The notes under the pieces were generated by a model, which was given only the letters and a program-made list of their open reading frames with translations, had not been told where the DNA came from and ran no database searches. Of a stretch of 64,000 nucleotides of DNA, positions 8,170-38,867 are shown one piece after another (positions within the stretch are counted from its first letter, which is position 1; every line of letters begins with the position of its first letter). The translations under genes and the position numbers were made by a program. The DNA comes from Kordia sp. TARA_039_SRF (GTDB lineage: Bacteria; Bacteroidota; Bacteroidia; Flavobacteriales; Flavobacteriaceae): contig SMNH02000001.1 of the NCBI GenBank assembly GCA_006383075.2, forward strand, positions 561,945 through 625,944. The letters are read 5' to 3'.

Positions 8170-8421
8170 CTAACAACCTGTATGGCATGTTCTACAGTGT
8201 ATTGGATCCGAAAGTGGATGTGCGTTTGTGATACAGTTACTGCAGGTTTGACCGCTACAATTATTGGTGTACGTACCGCCGCTTCCACCACTGCCGCCGC
8301 CAGTATCGCAGTCTACATCTTCCGTTTCGAATGGCGGATAATATCCTCCTTGAATTTTAGAAAGATTGGAAACATTTGTTTTTCCTAAATTTAGTTTTGA
8401 AATTAATTTCTTTTTTTTCAT
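8170..8421 (-). CDS. RiPP (class I lanthipeptide-like) precursor 1
   Basis: An 83-residue peptide. The Lys-rich leader MKKKKLISKLNLGKTNVSNL carries the LxL-G/N-K-x-x-V-S-x-L signature shared by six other small genes in this window, followed by IQGG, a double-Gly cleavage-like site. The core has a Gly-Ser-Thr run (TGGGSGGSGGT) and seven Cys, all after the leader, spaced as C-x4-C-x2-C and C-x2-C-x3-C near the end, with several Ser/Thr. The layout fits a ribosomally made peptide modified on Cys/Ser/Thr. No modification enzyme is adjacent. Neighbours are a dispersed repeat and a methyltransferase on the other strand. The product's final structure is unknown. Confidence 0.75.
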   Translation of the reverse strand: MKKKKLISKLNLGKTNVSNLSKIQGGYYPPFETEDVDCDTGGGSGGSGGTYTNNCSGQTCSNCITNAHPLSDPIHCRTCHTGC

Positions 8422-12154: not shown

Positions 12155-14677
12155 TTAAAAATGAAATCCAAATGCTCCTGTAACACCAAATTGACGCGCA
12201 TCTATATTTCCTTTGTAGTTGCCTCTAAAGTTAAAATCGATTCGGAAAATTTTAAAAATGTTGCCGATTCCGAGTGAATATTCCCAGTAAATTTCTTTGT
12301 TGGGCGCGATGCCTTCTGGCGTAATGCTTCTAAAAGGCAAACTTTGAAACGCAGGAACGTTCATGTCTACGTTTTCTTGCGAGATTTCTCCCCAAACACC
12401 ACGAATTCCAACAATTTCACGTAAATTTAATTTTCGTAAAAACGGAATTCTTGAGAACAATCGTCCGTTGAAATTATGCTCAATATGCAATGAAGCATAC
12501 GTATCTGTCACGAATTCGTAAAAGTTTAATTGTGAAAAAGTATTGTGAATTGAGAAGTATGCTTGATTTCCTGGCACTACATTTAGCAAGCTTAACGGTA
12601 CGGTTCCAAAGGTTTTTCCAGCCTCAAAAGTCGTGTAGGTTCGTCCAAATCCACCGACTTGAAAAGGTTGTCTGTAAAATAATTGCAATCTGGAATAGTT
12701 GAAATCACTGTTGAATAATCCTTCCACGCCGCGTGCATAATTCAGATAGATTCGCGGATAATCGTCATTGACAATTTTACGTTCCACTCCGTGACGAATG
12801 GTTTTTCGCCCTGGTGTCATATCTACAGAGAAATTGACTTCCGACTGAACCAATCGGTCATTAATACCATTTGGCGCTTGCGGATCGAGATAGGACAAAC
12901 TAAAGGTTGTTGGCGATGCCGAACGCATGGTTTTATACGAACTTCCCAAACGAAAAGTCATGTTTTTGATAGGCTCCATTTCCAACGCAAACGTAGTTAA
13001 ATTGATGTTTGTTAAGCGATCGCTGTTTCCAGAAGCAAATAGCGCGGATGAGGCAAAGCTTCGTCCCAAAACATTGTCATTTACGGTTAAACTTACGCCT
13101 GTTTGTTCTACATCGCGGCGATTTCCTGCGGAAATAATCAAGCGATTTTTTGGGTTAAGCAACCATTTTCCTGAGATTCCGTATTTGAAACGATTGTCCA
13201 TAAATCCGTACGCGCCATAGCCTTCAATACGCCATTTGTCATTCGGTCCAAAATAGGTTCGTCCACCAGCGCGCACTCGAATTCCTTCTACATCGTTGAA
13301 TCCGAAGGTTGAGAAAATTGGTCCGTAATCTAAATTGTATTTGTCAAATTCTACATATCCTGAAGCTAAGATAGACGCCAAACTGTACAAGCGTTTGAAT
13401 TTTGGAACGGTTTTAAGCGTATCCAACATTTTGTATACGCCTTTTTCGTCTTTGTTCAGCTTTTCCATTCGATTGGCTTCCCAAAATTCATCGCTGCGTT
13501 CGTAAATGTCCTCGTTAAACGGATTGATTTCTTTTTTATAGAATTCTTCTGGTTTTTCTTCATCAAACACATAATTGTCATACAACGTAGTACGTTTTCC
13601 GTAGACACCTTTGGACTTTTCTTTTTTGTTTAATGCGAAATCTGACAACATATAATCGCGCTTGAGCAAGAATACCGAATCGTTCAAAACGTCAAATTCT
13701 TGTTCTATGTAAATTTCTTTTACCCAGTTGATATTGGCGCTTTTACTGGCTTGAAGATTGATTTTTTTGATGGCAAATGTAGAATCATTCACCCAAAAAT
13801 CACCTTTAAAGGTAAGTTCGTTTTTTCGTCGCGGATAGTAGACAATATTGTAACACCATTTGTTATCGATAAAAGCCGTATCGACCAATACATAGTTATA
13901 CGTGTTGATTCCCGTACGCGATAATGGACTTGTAAAACTTTTGTCAAAAAACTTCAGGTAATTATCGTAAATATCATAATCGGCATATAAATCTTTGATA
14001 AAAGCTGTAATGGTTTCGTTGCTGCTAAAACCAGAGTTTTTGTTCCCGATTAGGTCTTCTTTTTCTTTGTTTTTGACATTGTCGCCATAGACTTTTGAGA
14101 AGGCTTCGTTGATGAAAATTGGCAGATAGGTTTTCCCTGTAACGCTAGATGTGTCAATTTCGTTGAAGATAAATTCCATGCCGCGAAAGAGTCTACTTTT
14201 CATCATGGCACTGTCAATCGTATTCAAATCAAATTCTACTTTTTCGTACTTATCGTATTGATATTGTTTGAATTGACGAATTCCATTGAATCGTTTTCGC
14301 TGCCATATTTTTCGAAGAATATCGATGGCAGGATTGTTTTTTTTGGGTTGTTTTCCCGAAACTATAACAACAGCATTGAGTTTTTCACCTTCACCCAAGG
14401 TGACTTCCATGTTGTAATTGACCTTTTTGGACAATTGAACTTCTTTCGTTTCATATCCCACAAAAGAAAAAATAACTACGGTATATGTTTTATCAGATTC
14501 CAAATAAAATCGCCCATCTTCATTGGTGATGGTACCTTCAATAGAGTTTTTAAATACCACATTGGCAAAAGGTACAGGTTCACCTGACGTATCTTTGACT
14601 ACTCCACTTACTTTGGTTTGGGAAAAACCTGTATAACAGAATAGAATGGCTATAAAACAATAAAATGTAGTCTTCAA
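12155..14677 (-). CDS. DUF5686 outer-membrane protein with carboxypeptidase-like domain
   Basis: An 840-residue protein. A signal peptide (MKTTFYCFIAILFCYTGFSQ) is followed by a CarboxypepD_reg-like beta-sandwich (TKVSGVVKDTSGEPVPFANV, NEDGRFYLES). Then comes the long DUF5686 region (IDILRKIWQRKRFN, FWVNDSTFAIKKI) and a C-terminal beta-barrel ending in GVTGAFGFHF with a terminal Phe, as in outer-membrane proteins. The family is a conserved Bacteroidota outer-membrane protein of unknown role. The only start giving the complete signal peptide is TTG at 14677; an in-frame stop lies just upstream, so a TTG start is well supported. Confidence 0.88.
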   Translation of the reverse strand: MKTTFYCFIAILFCYTGFSQTKVSGVVKDTSGEPVPFANVVFKNSIEGTITNEDGRFYLESDKTYTVVIFSFVGYETKEVQLSKKVNYNMEVTLGEGEKLNAVVIVSGKQPKKNNPAIDILRKIWQRKRFNGIRQFKQYQYDKYEKVEFDLNTIDSAMMKSRLFRGMEFIFNEIDTSSVTGKTYLPIFINEAFSKVYGDNVKNKEKEDLIGNKNSGFSSNETITAFIKDLYADYDIYDNYLKFFDKSFTSPLSRTGINTYNYVLVDTAFIDNKWCYNIVYYPRRKNELTFKGDFWVNDSTFAIKKINLQASKSANINWVKEIYIEQEFDVLNDSVFLLKRDYMLSDFALNKKEKSKGVYGKRTTLYDNYVFDEEKPEEFYKKEINPFNEDIYERSDEFWEANRMEKLNKDEKGVYKMLDTLKTVPKFKRLYSLASILASGYVEFDKYNLDYGPIFSTFGFNDVEGIRVRAGGRTYFGPNDKWRIEGYGAYGFMDNRFKYGISGKWLLNPKNRLIISAGNRRDVEQTGVSLTVNDNVLGRSFASSALFASGNSDRLTNINLTTFALEMEPIKNMTFRLGSSYKTMRSASPTTFSLSYLDPQAPNGINDRLVQSEVNFSVDMTPGRKTIRHGVERKIVNDDYPRIYLNYARGVEGLFNSDFNYSRLQLFYRQPFQVGGFGRTYTTFEAGKTFGTVPLSLLNVVPGNQAYFSIHNTFSQLNFYEFVTDTYASLHIEHNFNGRLFSRIPFLRKLNLREIVGIRGVWGEISQENVDMNVPAFQSLPFRSITPEGIAPNKEIYWEYSLGIGNIFKIFRIDFNFRGNYKGNIDARQFGVTGAFGFHF

Positions 14678-14753: not shown

Positions 14754-15731
14754 TTATTTGTACATCACTTTTTTTACAGCTTTGATAACGTCATTTTTGT
14801 TTGGCAACCATTCTTCCAATAATACTGGAGAATAGGGTGCTGGCGTATCTGCTGTGTTTATTTTTTGAATTGGCGCATCTAAATAATCAAATGCTTTCGC
14901 TTGTACTTGGTACACGATTTCTGTAGCTACGTTTCCAAATGGCCACGCTTCTTCTAAAATGACCAATCTGTTTGTTTTCTTTACAGAAGTTAAGATAGCA
15001 TCATGATCCATTGGACGTACTGTACGTAAGTCAATAATTTCACAAGAAATGCCTTCTTCTGCTAATTCGTCTGCTGCTTTGTACGCTTCCTTGATGATTT
15101 TTCCGAAAGAAACAATGGTTACATCGCTTCCTTCTCGCTTGATATCTGCTACTCCTAACGGAATGGTATATTCGCCTTCTGGCACTTCGCCTTTATCACC
15201 ATACATTTGCTCTGATTCCATAAAAATTACTGGATCATCATCTCTAATGGCGGTTTTTAATAAACCTTTCGCATCATACGGATTGGACGGTACTACCACT
15301 TTAAGTCCTGGACAGTTGGCATACCAGCTTTCAAAAGCTTGTGAGTGTGTTGCGGCTAATTGTCCCGCAGAAGCTGTTGGACCGCGAAAAACAATTGGAA
15401 TATTTAATTGTCCACCCGACATTTGACGCATTTTGGCTGCGTTATTTATAATTTGATCGATTCCAACTAGTGCAAAGTTGAACGTCATGAATTCGATAAT
15501 TGGTCGGTTTCCGTTCATGGCTGAACCCACTCCGATTCCTGCAAAACCTAATTCTGCAATTGGTGTATCGATAACTCTCTCAGCACCAAACTCATCCAAC
15601 ATTCCTTTCGAAGCTTTGTACGCTCCGTTATATTCGGCAACTTCTTCTCCCATTAAGTAAATGCTTTCGTCAGCGCGCATTTCTTCGCTCATGGCTTCGG
15701 CTACCGCTTCTCTAAACTGTATTGTTTTCAT
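14754..15731 (-). CDS. pdhB: Pyruvate dehydrogenase E1 component, beta subunit
   Basis: A 325-residue thiamine-diphosphate enzyme subunit that, with the alpha subunit, decarboxylates pyruvate for acetyl-CoA production. It shows the transketolase-like pyrimidine-binding region (YLMGEEVAEYNGAYKASKGM with the conserved Glu, RVIDTPIAELGFAGIGVGSA) and the C-terminal transketolase domain (EISCEIIDLRTVRPMD-type segment, ILEEAWPFGNVATEI). It is full length. The alpha subunit is not adjacent in the window; in many Flavobacteria pdhB stands apart from pdhA. An acetoin or 2-oxoacid dehydrogenase beta subunit is a less likely alternative. Confidence 0.93.
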   Translation of the reverse strand: MKTIQFREAVAEAMSEEMRADESIYLMGEEVAEYNGAYKASKGMLDEFGAERVIDTPIAELGFAGIGVGSAMNGNRPIIEFMTFNFALVGIDQIINNAAKMRQMSGGQLNIPIVFRGPTASAGQLAATHSQAFESWYANCPGLKVVVPSNPYDAKGLLKTAIRDDDPVIFMESEQMYGDKGEVPEGEYTIPLGVADIKREGSDVTIVSFGKIIKEAYKAADELAEEGISCEIIDLRTVRPMDHDAILTSVKKTNRLVILEEAWPFGNVATEIVYQVQAKAFDYLDAPIQKINTADTPAPYSPVLLEEWLPNKNDVIKAVKKVMYK

Positions 15732-15793
15732 ACAATTGTTTGTGTTTTAAAAAAGTGAAAAACAAAAATAACAATTAATTCTAAAAATGATAG

Positions 15794-17395
15794 TTACAAA
15801 ATCAAACATTTCTTAAAGATTAATGTTTTTATGATTTCTTTAGTAAAAGCGTGTACTCTTTGAAAATCTTCTTGATTTTCAACATCAAAAATGGTAGAGA
15901 ATTCGTTGATGACTTCATGAATCGCGACTTTGTATTCAAATAAGTCTAATAATATGTATTCATATTCGGTTAGCACAATTTCTTTAAAGTTGGTTTTCTT
16001 TTCCAAATTGTATGTGCCAAGCGGAATTTTGAAGCAATAAAATTCATTCGATTCCGCTTCTAAATTCACCTCAACTTTAAACAAACGCTCAAAAATTTCC
16101 TGCGTTATCCAATTCCAATCCGTTTTTATCAATTTCCCTGAAGGATTTGTTTGTAATTCTTTGGCGAGAAAAGTGGTTTCATCCAAAGTTAAGAGTTTTT
16201 CACGGCGATGCACATTTACAATATCTTCCAATTGCAACCACAACGGATTGGTAATTTGCTGCTGCATTACCACAGTTTCATATTCAAAATCTAGAATTTC
16301 TAGCAAACATTTTTGGTGTGTTTCTTTTTGTGTTTGAATGTGCATTTTACAATGTTCATAAAAGCATTTAAAAATGTCGGTTTGCAGATTTTTCAGTGGA
16401 AAATACGCAGTTTTAAATGTTTCTGTGATGGAAACTTCAAGTGTGTTGAATAGCACAAGTGTTCTTCGGAACGCGATGCTTACTTGCTGTAAAAGAAACG
16501 CATCAAAAGTGAAGTCGCTCGTACTTTTAGAAGCAATCGTACTTTCTGAAAATGGTGTCGAAATTTGCTGAATGTTTATGTTTTGGCGCAAGTCGCTTAG
16601 TATTTTTTTGCACGATGCAACTGCTGTTGATGATTCGTTTGTTTTTTCAATATGTTGGATAAGTTTTTCAAGCACTTCAATATTGGGCGATTCGTTTAGT
16701 GCTTGACACCATTGTATTCGCGTGTAAAACATGTGTGAAACATCTTGCGAAGTGAGCGAATGTTCTCTTTGATTGAAAAAAGCAGTGTTTTTTTGCAGAT
16801 AATTTTCTTTGAATTCTTCCAACATTTCTTCATTCTCCATTGGAGATTGATAGGTATGATAGTTTCCTGTTATCAATGCAATATCTTCATACAAACACAG
16901 GGATTTACTTACTTTGGCAATTTCTTTATTATTGTAATAATCTGCTAGTAACAAAAATGTGTACGCAATCCCTGAATTTCCTTTATAAAATCCGACAGGC
17001 GATTGTTGTTGCTGTCCGTCATACACACAGCACATTGGCGATAATTGCAACTGAAACAAAAGCGTTTTAAAAAAACTTTCAATCACAGGAGCATACGAAA
17101 TGTCTTCCACCAAATCTTCCAACTGTAGCAACAAATACAACATTCCCGATTTTCCTTCTAAAAAATAACTTTCTATCATGGAATTATACGTACTGTCCAA
17201 AAAATAAGCGACTGGAAAGTGTGCTTTGATAAGCGATTGCCATTGTTGTTGGTTAAATTTTCTTTGATACGCAATCAAAAAAGCCAACATTTCTATTTTT
17301 TCTTCAAAAATGGCTGTTTTTAGGAAATCGTGACACAAATCAAGATTAGTGTCGAATTTCTCTATATATAATTGTAAATCAAAAGGATAATGCAT
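15794..17395 (-). CDS. LanC-like protein, candidate RiPP maturation factor
   Basis: A 533-residue protein starting at the ATG at 17395. Two segments, GKSGMLYLLLQLEDL (from residue 81) and GFYKGNSGIAYTFLLLADYY (from residue 135), look like the G-x-(S/A)-G-x-x-Y-x-x-L-L helices of LanC-type alpha/alpha toroids. The zinc-ligand motifs of active LanC cyclases (W-C-x-G and C-H-G) are not seen, so it may be a degenerate or different-function relative. The last 60 residues (YEYILLDLFEYKVAIHEVI and on) look like a small helical or winged-helix domain and could be a leader-binding tail, but this is a guess. It is divergent from RiPP precursor 2, with a shared 108-bp control region. No signal peptide, so cytoplasmic. 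Confidence 0.5.
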   Translation of the reverse strand: MHYPFDLQLYIEKFDTNLDLCHDFLKTAIFEEKIEMLAFLIAYQRKFNQQQWQSLIKAHFPVAYFLDSTYNSMIESYFLEGKSGMLYLLLQLEDLVEDISYAPVIESFFKTLLFQLQLSPMCCVYDGQQQQSPVGFYKGNSGIAYTFLLLADYYNNKEIAKVSKSLCLYEDIALITGNYHTYQSPMENEEMLEEFKENYLQKNTAFFNQREHSLTSQDVSHMFYTRIQWCQALNESPNIEVLEKLIQHIEKTNESSTAVASCKKILSDLRQNINIQQISTPFSESTIASKSTSDFTFDAFLLQQVSIAFRRTLVLFNTLEVSITETFKTAYFPLKNLQTDIFKCFYEHCKMHIQTQKETHQKCLLEILDFEYETVVMQQQITNPLWLQLEDIVNVHRREKLLTLDETTFLAKELQTNPSGKLIKTDWNWITQEIFERLFKVEVNLEAESNEFYCFKIPLGTYNLEKKTNFKEIVLTEYEYILLDLFEYKVAIHEVINEFSTIFDVENQEDFQRVHAFTKEIIKTLIFKKCLIL

Positions 17396-17422
17396 CAAAA
17401 AATTATTTATACCGTATATTAA

Positions 17423-17443
17423 TTAAGTAAAAACCTTACTTAA
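17423..17443. promoter_or_regulatory. Inverted repeat between LanC-like gene and precursor 2
   Basis: TTAAGTAA (17423-17430) and TTACTTAA (17436-17443) are perfect 8-bp arms around AAACC. Its position in the short divergent gap suggests an operator acting on both genes; no cognate regulator is adjacent. Confidence 0.4.
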
Positions 17444-17503
17444 AGTCCTGTAATTTCTTTTATCTTATGAAAAGAAGTTTAACCATTTAAAATTACAATT
17501 TTT

Positions 17504-17773
17504 ATGAAAAAAAAGGTAAGTATTCAACTTAAATTAAACAAGCGAAGTGTGAGTAGTTTAGACAGAAACACACAAGAGCAGATTAAAGGAGGAAGTTATG
17601 GCTGTGGAACTGGTGGCTCAGGCGGATCTGGAGGTACAGGTGGAACTGGCGGCACAGGCGGTACTGGAAATTGCGAAACGCAAAATAATTGTCCACCACA
17701 AACGCAACAAACATGTTATACATATACCTATCCAAACCCAACATATTGGTGGGATTGCGTGTACGGTTGGTAA
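17504..17773 (+). CDS. RiPP (class I lanthipeptide-like) precursor 2, Gly-rich
   Basis: An 89-residue peptide. Its leader MKKKVSIQLKLNKRSVSSLD has the LxLxK-x-x-V-S-x-L signature and ends at QIKGG. The core opens with C-G-T and a run of GGS/GGT triplets (two GGS, four GGT). A Cys/Thr/Gln-rich stretch follows (NCETQNNCPPQTQQTC), then an aromatic tail with Tyr and three Trp (YWWDCVYGW). Five Cys, none in the leader. It lies between a LanC-like gene and a DUF6734 glycosyltransferase-like gene, the only precursor here with candidate maturation partners on both sides. It has its own terminator. Confidence 0.78.
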   Translation: MKKKVSIQLKLNKRSVSSLDRNTQEQIKGGSYGCGTGGSGGSGGTGGTGGTGGTGNCETQNNCPPQTQQTCYTYTYPNPTYWWDCVYGW

Positions 17774-17786
17774 ACAACGACGATAT

Positions 17787-17811
17787 AAGCTTCTTTCGAG
17801 AAGCTTTTTTT
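17787..17811 (+). terminator. Terminator of precursor 2
   Basis: AAGCTTCT-TTCG-AGAAGCTT followed by a run of T: a textbook intrinsic terminator on the plus strand. Its T-run touches the stop codon of the convergent DUF6734 gene. Confidence 0.9.
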
Positions 17812-18694
17812 ATATACTTTTTAATCTAGAATTCATCTGAAAATAAAAAGAAGGATATTCGTTTCGCAACATATTTTCCAACTCCACCACATGCATGTAC
17901 AACTTCTTTCGAACATCAATAATATGTGCATATTTTACTTCCGTATGTTTGTTTTGAAGATTGCTCATATAATTATAATCGGTTTCTTCTCCTTTTAACA
18001 AATAGCGCACTTCTACTCCTTTTTTTCGCGCCAAGCATGAAAATAAATATTGCTCATATATAATAGCAAAAGCTGAACTGTGAATTTCAGGATTGTCAAC
18101 GACACCTTTATTTTTAGCTAAAAACTCAAAAGCAACATCGACAAACTCATGAAAAAAATTGACATCATTTCCGCCGAAAATACCCGCATTGGCAGCAATG
18201 GTATCTTCGTGTTGTTCAATATCTTCTAAAATAACATTTGGAATATGCGAAAAGTAGGTTTTTAACTGCTCAATTCCGCGTTGGTATTGTACAAAATTCA
18301 GTTCTTCGTTTTGAGAAATCAACGGAGCAGAAAGTAGATTTTCGTTAAAACGTTTCCATACAAATACATCGCCATCAGCATGAATAAATGGTTTTTGCTG
18401 TAATTTATAGGCGTGCAATTTCCCAATAGCCCACAATTTTCCCGAATATGCATCTAAATCGTCCAACACTACTTGTACGTTGGTATAGGGCAAATTCAAT
18501 TGCTTAATCAATAACTCATACCCATTTTGATCGGTAATCAGTTCTACTTCATCATAATATTCGCGAAACTGTAAACAACTATAAGCCCAACTGTAATAAT
18601 AATATTTAGGCATCAGCCAACCACCAAAATATTTTGCCGCATCGTTGCCCGAACGCAAACTAGGTTTTGACCAATAACTGTGTACAATTTTCAT
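17810..18694 (-). CDS. DUF6734 family, glycosyltransferase-like protein
   Basis: A 294-residue cytoplasmic protein with the look of a GT-A glycosyltransferase: start IVHSYWSKP, then FGGWLMPKYYYYSWAYSCLQ, ITDQNGYELL, a DxD motif in PFIHADGDVFVW (Asp107 and Asp109), and a downstream ANAGIFGG segment like the second nucleotide-sugar loop of such enzymes. I recall this as family DUF6734, Bacteroidota proteins often found beside small lanthipeptide-like genes. It converges on precursor 2 with almost no gap. The natural guess is that it adds a sugar to the Ser/Thr/Cys-rich peptide. That is an inference from context and has not been shown. Confidence 0.6.
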   Translation of the reverse strand: MKIVHSYWSKPSLRSGNDAAKYFGGWLMPKYYYYSWAYSCLQFREYYDEVELITDQNGYELLIKQLNLPYTNVQVVLDDLDAYSGKLWAIGKLHAYKLQQKPFIHADGDVFVWKRFNENLLSAPLISQNEELNFVQYQRGIEQLKTYFSHIPNVILEDIEQHEDTIAANAGIFGGNDVNFFHEFVDVAFEFLAKNKGVVDNPEIHSSAFAIIYEQYLFSCLARKKGVEVRYLLKGEETDYNYMSNLQNKHTEVKYAHIIDVRKKLYMHVVELENMLRNEYPSFYFQMNSRLKSI

Positions 18695-18888
18695 AAAAAA
18701 GTATTCGTATGATGAGAATAAAAAGATACTAATTTAAACTGAAAAGCCACTAAAAATTATCAATCCTTGAAAAAATTGGGTGAAAAATAAAAAATAATTA
18801 AAATTTATTATGCATGCATAGTATTTTTAGAGAAATATTCAGTATATTCGTCGAAAATTTAAACATTCAATTAAAACATATAAATTCC

Positions 18889-19635
18889 ATGAAAATATTA
18901 GTATGTATTAGTCACGTTCCTGACACTACTTCAAAAATCAATTTTACGGAAGGAGATACTAAATTTGATACCAACGGCGTACAATTTGTCATCAATCCAA
19001 ATGACGAATTCGGATTGACACGCGCTATGTGGTTTAAAGAAAAGCAAGGCGCTTCTGTAGACGTTGTAAACGTTGGCGGTGCAGAAACGGAACCAACATT
19101 ACGTAAAGCATTAGCCATTGGAGCTGATAAAGCAATTCGTGTAAACGCAGAAGCAACTGACGGATTTTTTGTTGCAAAACAATTAGCAGCCGTAGTAAAA
19201 GATGGCGGATACGATTTGGTAATCGCAGGAAGAGAATCCATTGATTATAATGGAGGAATGGTTCCTGGAATGTTGGCTGAATTGACAGGTGCTAATTTTG
19301 TAAATACATGTATCGGCTTAGAAGTTGACGGAACTTCCGCAACAGCAACTCGTGAAATTGACGGTGGAAAAGAAACTTCAAACACATCACTTCCATTAGT
19401 AATTGCAGGACAAAAAGGATTGGTAGAAGAAAGCGACTTGCGTATTCCAAACATGAGAGGAATTATGATGGCGCGTAAAAAACCATTAACGGTAATCGAT
19501 GCTGTTGATGCTTCAAAAGAAACAACTGCTGTAAAGTTTGAAAAACCTGCACCAAAAGGCGCTGTGAAATTGGTTGACGCAGATAATATTGACGAATTAA
19601 TCAACTTATTGCACAACGAAGCAAAGGTAATTTAG
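18889..19635 (+). CDS. etfB: Electron transfer flavoprotein beta subunit
   Basis: A 248-residue protein that with the alpha subunit carries electrons from acyl-CoA dehydrogenases to the quinone pool. The start is the ATG at 18889 (MKILVCISHVPDT); a longer frame from 18814 adds 25 residues not found in the family. Recognisable segments are INPNDEFGLTRA, GADKAIRV, the AMP-binding region VIAGRESIDYNGGMVPGMLA and the signature LRIPNMRGIMMARKKPLTV near residue 185. It is followed by etfA after 71 bp, and a terminator comes only after etfA. Confidence 0.96.
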   Translation: MKILVCISHVPDTTSKINFTEGDTKFDTNGVQFVINPNDEFGLTRAMWFKEKQGASVDVVNVGGAETEPTLRKALAIGADKAIRVNAEATDGFFVAKQLAAVVKDGGYDLVIAGRESIDYNGGMVPGMLAELTGANFVNTCIGLEVDGTSATATREIDGGKETSNTSLPLVIAGQKGLVEESDLRIPNMRGIMMARKKPLTVIDAVDASKETTAVKFEKPAPKGAVKLVDADNIDELINLLHNEAKVI

Positions 19636-31806: not shown

Positions 31807-32016
31807 ATGAAAAAAAGAAATGCAAAATCCTTACGTCTCAACAAAAACTCTGTTTCCAATCTTGAAAAAAATCAAGTAAATGGCGGAACTGTGTATACAA
31901 AATATAATTGTGACACATTCGCAGGAAGTCCGTGTACTTCTTTTATTGATGCATGCCCATCGGCTTGGGTATGTCCTTTGACTGAAAATCCTAGAGAATG
32001 TCCTTTTCCGTACTAG
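31807..32016 (+). CDS. RiPP (class I lanthipeptide-like) precursor 3
   Basis: A 69-residue peptide. The leader MKKRNAKSLRLNKNSVSNLE and NQVNGG match the family signature and double-Gly site. The core has five Cys and the motif FIDACPSAWVCP, which recurs in the next two genes; the peptide ends ECPFPY. First of three tandem precursors on the plus strand. No enzymes flank the set. The gap to the next gene is 211 bp and AT-rich, so each may have its own promoter. Confidence 0.78.
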   Translation: MKKRNAKSLRLNKNSVSNLEKNQVNGGTVYTKYNCDTFAGSPCTSFIDACPSAWVCPLTENPRECPFPY

Positions 32017-32227: not shown

Positions 32228-32410
32228 ATGAAAAAAAGAAACCTAAAATCGTTACAACTTAGAAAAAATTCTATTTCAAATTTAGAAAACCACCAAGTAA
32301 ATGGCGGATTGAAGCTTACAGATACTTGTACATCAGTTATTGATGATTGTCCTTCTGCATGGTATTGCCCTACAGATGTACCAACGCTTTGCGTTTTCAC
32401 TTCTATTTAA
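32228..32410 (+). CDS. RiPP (class I lanthipeptide-like) precursor 4
   Basis: A 60-residue peptide. The leader MKKRNLKSLQLRKNSISNLE and HQVNGG is nearly identical to that of precursor 3. The core has four Cys with the shared motif VIDDCPSAWYCP, and four core Thr plus two core Ser that could be dehydrated. It is the shortest member of the family here. It lies 19 bp before precursor 5 and probably shares its message. Confidence 0.78.
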   Translation: MKKRNLKSLQLRKNSISNLENHQVNGGLKLTDTCTSVIDDCPSAWYCPTDVPTLCVFTSI

Positions 32411-32429
32411 TTAACTTAAACATATAATC

Positions 32430-32687
32430 ATGAAAAAAAGAAATTTAAAATCATTAAAACTTCGTAAAAACTCCGTTGCGCAATTAGGAAATGACGCAAA
32501 AGGAGGATTGGTTAGAATTACTCAAATTAATGTATGTGGTTCGCAAATTGACGCGTGTCCATCAGCATTGGCTTGTACATTTCAAATAAATTGTCCTTTG
32601 ACGATAGATGCTACTTGTCAGACACTCAACAACAAGTGTGAAACATTTAATTATCCGTGTCAATCCTTAGTTGATTGTCCTTTTTAA
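32430..32687 (+). CDS. RiPP (class I lanthipeptide-like) precursor 5
   Basis: An 85-residue peptide. The leader MKKRNLKSLKLRKNSVAQLG ends at AKGG. The core has eight Cys: the shared QIDACPSALAC motif, then a longer Cys/Thr-rich extension (NCPLTIDATCQTLNNKC, then PCQSLVDCPF) with a Cys roughly every 6-8 residues, more than in precursors 3 and 4. It ends directly before a strong terminator shared with the convergent amidohydrolase gene. Confidence 0.78.
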   Translation: MKKRNLKSLKLRKNSVAQLGNDAKGGLVRITQINVCGSQIDACPSALACTFQINCPLTIDATCQTLNNKCETFNYPCQSLVDCPF

Positions 32688-38257: not shown

Positions 38258-38452
38258 TTATTGGCAATTTGTTCCGTATCCTGTAAGACACCAAGACCCT
38301 GTTTGCGTTGGAGGCGGACATTCTGTCTCAAATTGACTTTGTCCTGTTGGTCTATCATGAGTCCAATTTAATCCACCTTTTAAAGCGCCTGCTTCTAGAC
38401 TGGATACTAAACTCTTGTTAAGTTTTAAGTTTTTTACGTTTTGTTTTTTCAT
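38258..38452 (-). CDS. RiPP (class I lanthipeptide-like) precursor 6
   Basis: A 64-residue peptide starting at the ATG at 38452; a longer frame from 38491 adds residues that do not fit the family leader. The leader MKKQNVKNLKLNKSLVSSLE and ALKGG match the family. The core (NWTHDRPTGQSQFETECPPP, then TQTGSWCLTGYGTNCQ) has only three Cys, with several Thr/Ser and Gly. It lies in the same orientation as precursor 7, 184 bp away. Confidence 0.75.
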   Translation of the reverse strand: MKKQNVKNLKLNKSLVSSLEAGALKGGLNWTHDRPTGQSQFETECPPPTQTGSWCLTGYGTNCQ

Positions 38453-38636
38453 AATGTAAAGTTTCTTAGTTAAAGTCTTAAATTTAGGCAATTACAGCGA
38501 TATTCAAATACGTGAAAACCGTAAAATTCACTGTCATTCCTGTCATTTCGTTAACCGTTAAAAATTCCATCAGAAATAAGTCTACGTATTTACAACATAC
38601 TGCTTTAAATTAACAATGAACAAATGTCGTCTATTA

Positions 38637-38867
38637 TTAACAAATAGGACGTGTAAGTCGATCAACTTCAATAGTTAATACACAACCTGCTTCTCGGGTT
38701 TGTGGACAGTTAAATCGTGTTAAACATAAATTGTTACCATTTTGATCTACGATAGATAAAATACAGTATCGTACTGAGTTTTCTACGCCACCAACTTGTT
38801 TTCCTGCGTGAAGATTTGAAATTGACTTCTTGTTTAGCGATAAATTTTTAATGCTCTTTTTTTTCAT
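38637..38867 (-). CDS. RiPP (class I lanthipeptide-like) precursor 7
   Basis: A 76-residue peptide. The leader MKKKSIKNLSLNKKSISNLH ends at KQVGG, the family pattern. The core holds five Cys (RYC, LC, NC, GC, IC) in a more mixed, charged background than the others (IEVDRLTRPIC end), with fewer Ser/Thr. No enzyme gene is adjacent; the next genes upstream are T9SS-targeted proteins. It ends 184 bp before precursor 6 begins, in the same direction. Confidence 0.72.
   Translation of the reverse strand: MKKKSIKNLSLNKKSISNLHAGKQVGGVENSVRYCILSIVDQNGNNLCLTRFNCPQTREAGCVLTIEVDRLTRPIC

Follow-up and report, generated by a model that had tools for sequence, protein, structure and literature searches.

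The window analysed here is a stretch of 64,000 nt from Kordia sp. TARA_039_SRF (genome size, 4.59 Mb), in which three open reading frames (ORFs) fill positions 15794-18694. They encode a 533-aa protein (15794..17395, minus strand), an 89-aa peptide (17504..17773, plus strand) and a 294-aa protein of the family DUF6734 (PF20508; 17810..18694, minus strand). On the basis of the ORF calls, Pfam, profile comparison and a structural model, the 533-aa protein is a candidate adaptor, with a LanC-like barrel and a C-terminal domain similar to TglI and NGO1945. The peptide was identified as a precursor from a leader match and its conservation in a second Kordia species, and the DUF6734 protein, from Pfam, invariant columns and a model, is a predicted glycosyltransferase of the GT-A type. 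We refer to the three genes as the cassette and read it as the putative source of a glycosylated ribosomally synthesized and post-translationally modified peptide (RiPP). An earlier note on this DNA had described a compact locus of a LanC-like protein, a precursor and a DUF6734 protein, and all three ORFs were recovered where it had placed them. Compared loci are labelled L0xx or L1xx and compared genomes Gxxx; L066 is the orthologous cassette of the second species, Kordia 2-867.

The three products of the cassette

The peptide matches NF038153, the NCBIfam model for class I lanthipeptide leaders, with 27.4 bits (cut-off 22). The leader assigned from this match (residues 1-30; 17504-17593, plus strand) contains LKLNKRSVSSL and ends in Gly-Gly. 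The former agrees with LxLxKx5L, a motif that PMC7268733 describes for a subset of the class I precursors of Bacteroidetes, among which a Gly-Gly ending is common. Comparison with the second Kordia species divides the rest of the peptide into a variable stretch rich in Gly, Ser and Thr (residues 31-55, within 17504..17773) and a conserved tail rich in Cys, Thr, Tyr and Trp (residues 56-89; 17669-17770), both on the plus strand. The L066 homologue, a peptide of 90 aa in the same gap, is 81 % identical over 86 aligned residues; it retains the leader and the tail CPPQTQxTCYTYTYPNPTYWWDCVYG, and differs in the Gly/Ser/Thr-rich middle.

The 294-aa protein matches PF20508 with 315.8 bits (curated cut-off 27). 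The model and the column conservation were derived from an alignment of 26 sequences, namely 26 of the 28 high-scoring copies from the survey described below, after exclusion of a truncated and a broken copy. The model has a predicted local distance difference test score (pLDDT) of 91.4. Glycogenin was the top Foldseek match (E 2.8e-6) among 234 at E <= 0.001, and a second structural aligner gave Z 13.4 for glycogenin (216 residues, root mean square deviation 3.8) and Z 12.1 for LgtC (230 residues, root mean square deviation 4.0). The GT-A fold suspected in the earlier note was thus found in the model, and we regard this fold as near certain for the DUF6734 protein. Twenty-four columns are invariant across the 26 sequences, including D107, D109, G171, G174, G175, E214, Q215, H257 and K263. 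The DGD motif reported earlier at residues 107-109 is present (codons 18368-18376), and the codon of His257 is at 17924-17926. The motifs DxD, N-x-G and (D/E)Q, followed by a late His, come in the same order and at similar places in a comparison GT8 protein, the positions being 107-109, 169-171, 214-215 and 257 in DUF6734 and 107-109, 154, 189 and 248 in the GT8 protein. In GT8 enzymes, these residues take part in metal and donor binding. Together, the modelled fold and this pattern suggest a glycosyltransferase. Sequence searches against PDB chains returned nothing useful for the DUF6734 protein singly and nothing for the DUF6734 profile.

The 533 residues of the largest product are counted from an ATG; starting at the TTG codon just before it would make the protein 534 aa long. 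Pfam LANC_like (PF05147) matches with 24.1 bits (cut-off 23.2), the best stretch being residues 82-155. A family profile of nine sequences matches human LanCL2 (E 2.2e-8), and the LanC-side profile recovers LanCL2, LicM2, LanCL1 and a few others from among the PDB chains; a search of these chains with the 533-aa sequence singly gave nothing useful, the matches appearing only with the profile. The model (pLDDT 80.8, 14-row alignment) has two parts. As delimited by superposition and a motif scan, the LanC-like barrel comprises residues 1-289 (16529..17395, minus strand). It superposes on LanCL2 (Z 14.3, 237 residues) and on the nisin cyclase NisC (Z 14.2, 241 residues), in line with the LanC fold expected by the earlier note, which had also recorded two G-x-S-G-x-x-Y helices and the lack of W-C-x-G and C-H-G. 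Both repeats (GKSGMLY and GNSGIAY) are present, two being the number of GxxG repeats found by pattern, and the motif scan of the 533-aa protein detected neither of the zinc-ligand motifs, WCxG and CHG.

The second part is the partner domain (residues 296-533; 15797..16510, minus strand), defined by superposition, Foldseek, secondary structure and hhalign, in which helices are followed by strands and an end resembling a RiPP recognition element (RRE). The modelled end has strands at 413-416, 421-425, 452-463 and 468-475, followed by three helices (477-527). According to PMC10880893, TglI has a helical N-terminal domain and then an RRE domain, in which three strands are combined with several helices. 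PMC12452194 takes NGO1945 as its model partner of a multinuclear non-haem iron-dependent oxidase (MNIO) and names TglI and NGO1945 as the best structural hits of partner proteins missed by sequence models. Residues 296-533 superpose on chain A of 8hi7, the TglHI entry, with Z 13.5 over 190 residues, and NGO1945 (3dee) aligns with the 533-aa model with Z 12.4 (194/200 residues, range 158-533). Foldseek paired the model with TbiB1, a lasso leader-binding protein with its leader (5v1v_A), at probability 0.97 and TM 0.70 by target length. A PqqD model matched the domain weakly (E 0.14, 1 of 14 members), the lasso PqqD-family chain 9x90 gave E 1.2, and the Pfam DUF2063 models had no match at E<=1. 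As modelled, the domain resembles TglI and NGO1945, MNIO partners that carry an RRE. The earlier note had proposed that the LanC-like member binds or presents the peptide instead of forming thioethers. An adaptor rather than a cyclase is supported, but on the model the part that would present the peptide is most likely the C-terminal domain, which the earlier note had missed, and not the LanC barrel.

DUF6734 loci and LanC relatives in other genomes

DUF6734 is uncommon: within the family 6 of 149 genomes carry it, within the genus 8 of 11 and within the phylum 16 of 395, the source genome being counted in each. The searches, together with L057, gave 36 distinct places. All 28 scoring >150 bits were read, as were two loci (L114 and L115, with four copies) from among the eight low-scoring copies. 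A plausible Gly-Gly leader ORF lies within 2.5 kb in 16 of the 28 (the window, L057, L061, L062, L065-L068, L070, L102, L103, L105-L108 and L110), or in 14 of 26 when the window and its orthologue are left out, and the tendency of DUF6734 to adjoin leader peptides, which the earlier note had expected of a neighbourhood survey, is therefore seen. A strict leader model, built from 29 leaders of the source genome minus the window precursor, recovered few leaders outside class I, and a looser pattern was therefore used. This pattern marks 17 of 30 loci (the 28 together with L114 and L115), reduced to 16 because the L111 match is nucleotidyltransferase-like and was discounted. Close to DUF6734, 30.6 kb of gene-free DNA contained 22 leader-type ORFs, whereas the 80.9 kb at a distance contained 14 (binomial p 2.4e-5). 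When the window, L066 and two doubtful matches were removed, the counts were 18 in 29.0 kb versus 6 in 64.4 kb (p 1.2e-5), both tests counting related loci separately, as independent. One of the two L102 leader matches is doubtful, and 9 of the 14 far matches come from the leader-rich window and L110.

Models identified LanB in L057, LANC_like in L110, a C39 ABC transporter in L061, C39/VKOR proteins in L067 and L068 and two radical SAM/SPASM proteins in L107. Of the two grasp-with-spasm maturases, L061 has both and L062 has the ATP-grasp member. C39-type neighbours were recognized by eye in two loci outside the 16, L069 and L109. In a joint scan of 94 neighbour proteins (200-400 aa, 23 loci), the families with at least two matching proteins included no MNIO family; this result covers neither singly matched families nor the source genome as a whole. 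In five Kordia loci (L058-L060, L063 and L064), the LanC-like gene is immediately followed by non-ribosomal peptide synthetase (NRPS) genes, assigned by Pfam for L058 and L063 and by ORF size and start for the others. There, DUF6734 is beside a zinc-less LanC-like protein of 625-650 aa, and the additional genes encode an acyl-CoA dehydrogenase (in L058, by Pfam) or hydroxylases, a second glycosyltransferase and a thioesterase (in L063, by Pfam). Upstream of its NRPS cluster, L064 also encodes a 45-aa peptide (14163-14300, minus strand) whose leader is of the class I type; a search with this peptide gave no homologue in the four other NRPS loci. L114 and L115 hold divergent tandem DUF6734 pairs beside proteins of >1100 aa and, by eye, seem to be of a non-RiPP type. 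As DUF6734 also adjoins NRPS genes and occurs at sites where no RiPP genes were seen, the family as a whole is not RiPP-specific.

Relatives of the LanC-like protein were sought with the family profile in 395 genomes of the class, with matches in nine, the source genome included. The motif comparison covered the five full-length relatives without a DUF6734 neighbour (by eye), L135-L139, from a set that also included four weaker matches (L140-L143). Four of these five have both zinc motifs: L135-L138, of ~660 aa, carry WCHG and CHG together with six GxxG repeats in the barrel, and L139 is without zinc motifs. All eight DUF6734-linked LanC-like proteins (window, L066, L057, L058, L059, L060, L063 and L064) lack both. 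L138 belongs to a pinensin-type cluster, with an adjoining NF038180 precursor (44 bits, Gly-Gly leader), and no RiPP genes were seen around L135 and L136. In a tree of LanC-like proteins, the zinc-less DUF6734-linked set is compatible with one origin (support 69/85, 72 % of bootstrap trees), and on these sequences a single origin is weakly supported.

The C-terminal domain was compared using hhalign. Against that of L135-L138, the values were 97.1 % for window/L066, 97.8 % for L058-L060, 95.5 % for L063/L064, 93.0 % for L139, and 85.8 % for L057 (95.8 % against window/L066); the tails that L068 and L102 carry as fusions to DUF6734 gave 96.6 %. A separate comparison gave 97.4 %, and two negative controls at most 1.1 %. 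In L065, a second locus of Kordia 2-867, the domain stands alone as a 236-aa protein (93.5 % against window/L066) that adjoins DUF6734 and a 60-aa Gly-Gly leader peptide. Some direct pairs among the 11 companion loci are weak and are linked only via other members (window/L066 gave 0.4 % against L063/L064 and 11.1 % against L068/L102, and L065 gave 5.7 % against the zinc-motif relatives). In total, the domain accompanies DUF6734 in 11 of the 28 high-scoring loci, three of them without LanC. As it is found without the barrel, LanC is dispensable and the C-terminal domain is the commoner companion of DUF6734.

Conservation in Kordia and genomic setting

Kordia 2-867 has all three genes in the same order at the same site. 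Between the window and L066, Nei-Gojobori dN and dS are 0.133 and 1.08 for the peptide, 0.336 and 1.74 for the 533-aa protein and 0.093 and 1.22 for DUF6734, compared with 0.020 and 0.75 for one flanking housekeeping gene and 0.044 and 0.66 for another. The pairwise ratios for the cassette are ~0.12, 0.19 and 0.08, respectively, and are rough, as dS >1 is near saturation. The genes are all intact, with dN/dS well below 1, in both species that keep them. Because of this shared order and low dN/dS, the cassette is more than a chance arrangement. The gap between the flanking genes was compared in 11 Kordia genomes, and the cassette is whole in two. Six (G152, G153, G154, G155, G157 and G158) hold a remnant of 28 to 82 residues from near the end of the 533-aa protein, to which G158 adds the first 25 residues of DUF6734, and G149, G150 and G151 have no protein match in gaps of 534, 531 and 166 bp. 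The corresponding gap loci are L145-L147 and L149-L154 (six with remains and three without a protein trace). From these sequences, the cassette seems to be old in the genus and to have been lost from most species.

Read from the sequence, a divergent intergenic region of 108 bp (17396..17503) lies between the adaptor gene on its left and the precursor gene on its right. It includes a candidate inverted repeat, TTAAGTAA/TTACTTAA (17424-17444), which was read directly and is partly retained in the second species. The precursor and DUF6734 genes are convergent, with 36 bp between them, in which a hairpin followed by a T run (17787..17806, plus strand; -8.5 kcal/mol, z -2.85, 4 of 200 shuffles folding as well) is the probable terminator of the precursor gene. 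A differently spelled hairpin is in the same place in the second species (z -3.17). Rfam gave no matches at gathering score in 15000-19500. By reading, the flanking genes are housekeeping genes, encoding pyruvate dehydrogenase E1 beta (14754-15731) and, from 18814, the electron-transfer flavoprotein subunits, and no LanB dehydratase was seen among the ORFs around the cassette. The sole PF14028 (Lant_dehydr_C) match of the genome is at C1:275350, ~300 kb from the cassette, and a split LanB/LanC cluster with its own leader peptides is found elsewhere in the genome (~300 kb off). Class I lanthipeptide leader matches are widely scattered in this genome, with at least 88 at E<=1 and 26 over the cut-off, a lower bound as 150 of 172 candidates were scored. 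With a single Lant_dehydr_C match against at least 88 leader matches, orphan precursors are many and enzymes few. The window itself holds at least six other leader peptides, at 8170-8421, 38258-38491 and 38637-38867 on the minus strand and at 31807-32016, 32228-32410 and 32430-32687 on the plus strand.

Proposed mechanism, alternatives and known systems

A leader, a GT-A fold, a zinc-less LanC barrel, a TglI-like domain, a conserved cassette and an association of DUF6734 with leaders have been shown by computation. On balance we consider it probable, by a modest degree, that the cassette makes a glycosylated RiPP via a leader-guided two-protein glycosyltransferase, the adaptor of which is a retired cyclase. 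The glycosylated or otherwise unusual RiPP of the earlier note is supported to this extent; glycosylation itself, the sugar and the acceptor are what we infer. Given its fold and motif, the 533-aa protein would bind the precursor leader at its winged-helix-like end, much as other RREs bind theirs. The 533-aa protein may then dock on the DUF6734 enzyme and offer the core to it, with the LanC barrel, presumably derived from a pinensin-type cyclase that lost its zinc motifs and most of its repeats, acting as a scaffold and not as a cyclase. DUF6734, with its modelled fold and residues, would move a sugar from a nucleotide sugar onto core side chains (Thr, Tyr, Ser or Cys). Finally, machinery encoded elsewhere would cut the leader after Gly-Gly and export the product, and any lanthionine rings would have to come from the split LanB/LanC cluster, acting in trans. 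A broader proposal, which we advance tentatively and rate somewhat below an even chance, is that DUF6734 and the TglI-like partner domain form a transferable adaptor-guided module, which Bacteroidota have attached to the routes leading to class I lanthipeptides, graspetides, radical SAM peptides and NRPS products. In this cassette, a lanthionine cyclase would have turned adaptor, with the lanthipeptide-type precursor glycosylated instead of ring-closed.

A number of observations weigh against the leader-guided glycosyltransferase mechanism. The cassette itself is without a dehydratase, peptidase or transporter, and it is dispensable, as a remnant is all that is left of it in at least six of the nine further Kordia species. 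The chain name is absent from the aligner output for 8hi7; we equate chain A with TglI on the grounds that PMC12452194 refers to this entry for TglI, whereas TglH has a TIM-barrel fold (PMC10880893). The aligner notes state that helical models can reach Z ~13 through a common arrangement, and Foldseek with the 533-aa model gave no match at E 0.001, the best being 0.01. Comparison of the DUF6734 profile with two GT8 proteins by hhalign (probability 0.2) revealed no sequence kinship, and PF01501 (GT8) has no match in the source genome. GT8 membership was therefore dropped, and only the fold and the residue pattern argue for the activity. The NRPS-linked loci have no nearby leader peptide, only L064 having one at all, ~5 kb away, and in their LanC-like proteins the domain match ends ~50 residues early, short of the presumed leader-binding part. 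Leader guidance is therefore not the whole story. In five of the 28 loci, no RiPP or NRPS genes were seen; these are L071, L112, L113, L104, which lies at a contig end, and L111, which is interrupted by stops. These five lay outside the comparison of companion domains, in which the proposition that every DUF6734 companion is the same domain held only in part. Beyond the 11 of 28 in which it was demonstrated, there is a weak hint in five loci (L067, L069, L070, L103 and L106; E 0.005-0.012 versus ~0.6 for three negative controls), and no kinship was detected in seven RiPP-type loci (L061, L062, L105, L107, L108, L109 and L110).

The abundance of scattered leaders raises the alternative that the precursor is one of many class I leader peptides modified in trans by the LanB/LanC cluster, its position being incidental and its neighbours acting on another target. 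The cluster has leader peptides of its own, and the precursor is on the strand opposite to both neighbours. However, the precursor lies between the same two genes in the second species, which counts as one inherited event for two Kordia species, and DUF6734 of other genera, in independent loci, is also beside leader peptides. We regard this explanation as unlikely. It is a shade less likely that DUF6734 glycosylates a non-RiPP acceptor (nonribosomal peptide, envelope glycan or carrier protein), the partner domain only coupling it to different assembly lines. Such a role would suit the five Kordia NRPS loci with the same gene pair and the divergent copies where no RiPP gene is seen, but the cassette has a conserved leader peptide inside it and no NRPS gene was seen in the window by reading.

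We think it improbable that the 533-aa protein is a cyclase working without zinc, in the manner of the cyclase domain of class III LanKC, with a lanthipeptide product and DUF6734 as an accessory tailoring enzyme. The barrel does have the LanC fold, LanKC cyclase domains are likewise without zinc ligands (PMC7268733), and L057 and L110 pair DUF6734 with separate zinc-motif LanC proteins. Set against this, the barrel has two GxxG repeats by pattern versus six in the four zinc-motif relatives, there is no adjoining LanB, and in L065 the partner domain is alone, without a LanC part. It is more improbable still, to a point near dismissal, that the C-terminal domain genuinely partners an MNIO, the reaction being carried out by a multinuclear iron enzyme encoded elsewhere in the genome. 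The best structural matches, the TglHI entry and NGO1945, are MNIO partners (PMC12452194), but the 94 neighbour proteins of 23 loci revealed no MNIO family matched at least twice, no MNIO search having been made in the source genome.

If the proposed leader-guided glycosyltransferase is correct, DUF6734, a Pfam family without known function, becomes a family of peptide-tailoring glycosyltransferases that can be mined by the partner domain, and the TglI-type domain serves enzymes beyond MNIO oxidases. The conversion of cyclase to adaptor would be readable in living relatives, as LanC with zinc motifs, LanC without them, a shortened barrel, the domain alone and the domain fused to the enzyme. 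The cassette, with three genes, is small enough for direct tests of the sugar and residue involved. Among open-licence PubMed Central papers, we found none for 'DUF6734', and no report in the literature searched of DUF6734 as an enzyme, of its TglI-type partner or of a zinc-less LanC as adaptor.

In the glycosylated lanthipeptides cacaoidin and NAI-112, a glycosyltransferase serves a lanthipeptide-type precursor; to our knowledge, those glycosyltransferases are not of the DUF6734 family. With GT-A enzymes of the glycogenin/LgtC type, DUF6734 shares the fold and the order and rough spacing of DxD, N-x-G, (D/E)Q and the late His, but it occurs in a RiPP context and has no detectable sequence kinship to the two GT8 proteins. 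RREs fused to another glycosyltransferase family, PF00535, are described in PMC12710340, and an RRE joined to a glycosyltransferase is therefore not new in kind. The TglHI and MNIO-partner systems (TglI, NGO1945/DUF2063 and PME-type 1 and 2 of PMC12452194) likewise combine a helical part and RRE-like end with a catalytic protein and a small precursor. In the cassette, however, the catalytic partner is a predicted glycosyltransferase and not an iron TIM barrel, and the domain has no DUF2063 Pfam match and is fused to a LanC barrel. The pinensin-type class I clusters of Bacteroidota have NF038180 precursors and a LanC related to LanM; the C-terminal domain is shared with the zinc-motif LanC relatives, one of which (L138) lies in such a cluster. 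Compared with these clusters, the cassette is without the zinc motifs, most of the repeats and an adjacent split LanB, and a predicted GT-A protein stands in the enzyme's place.

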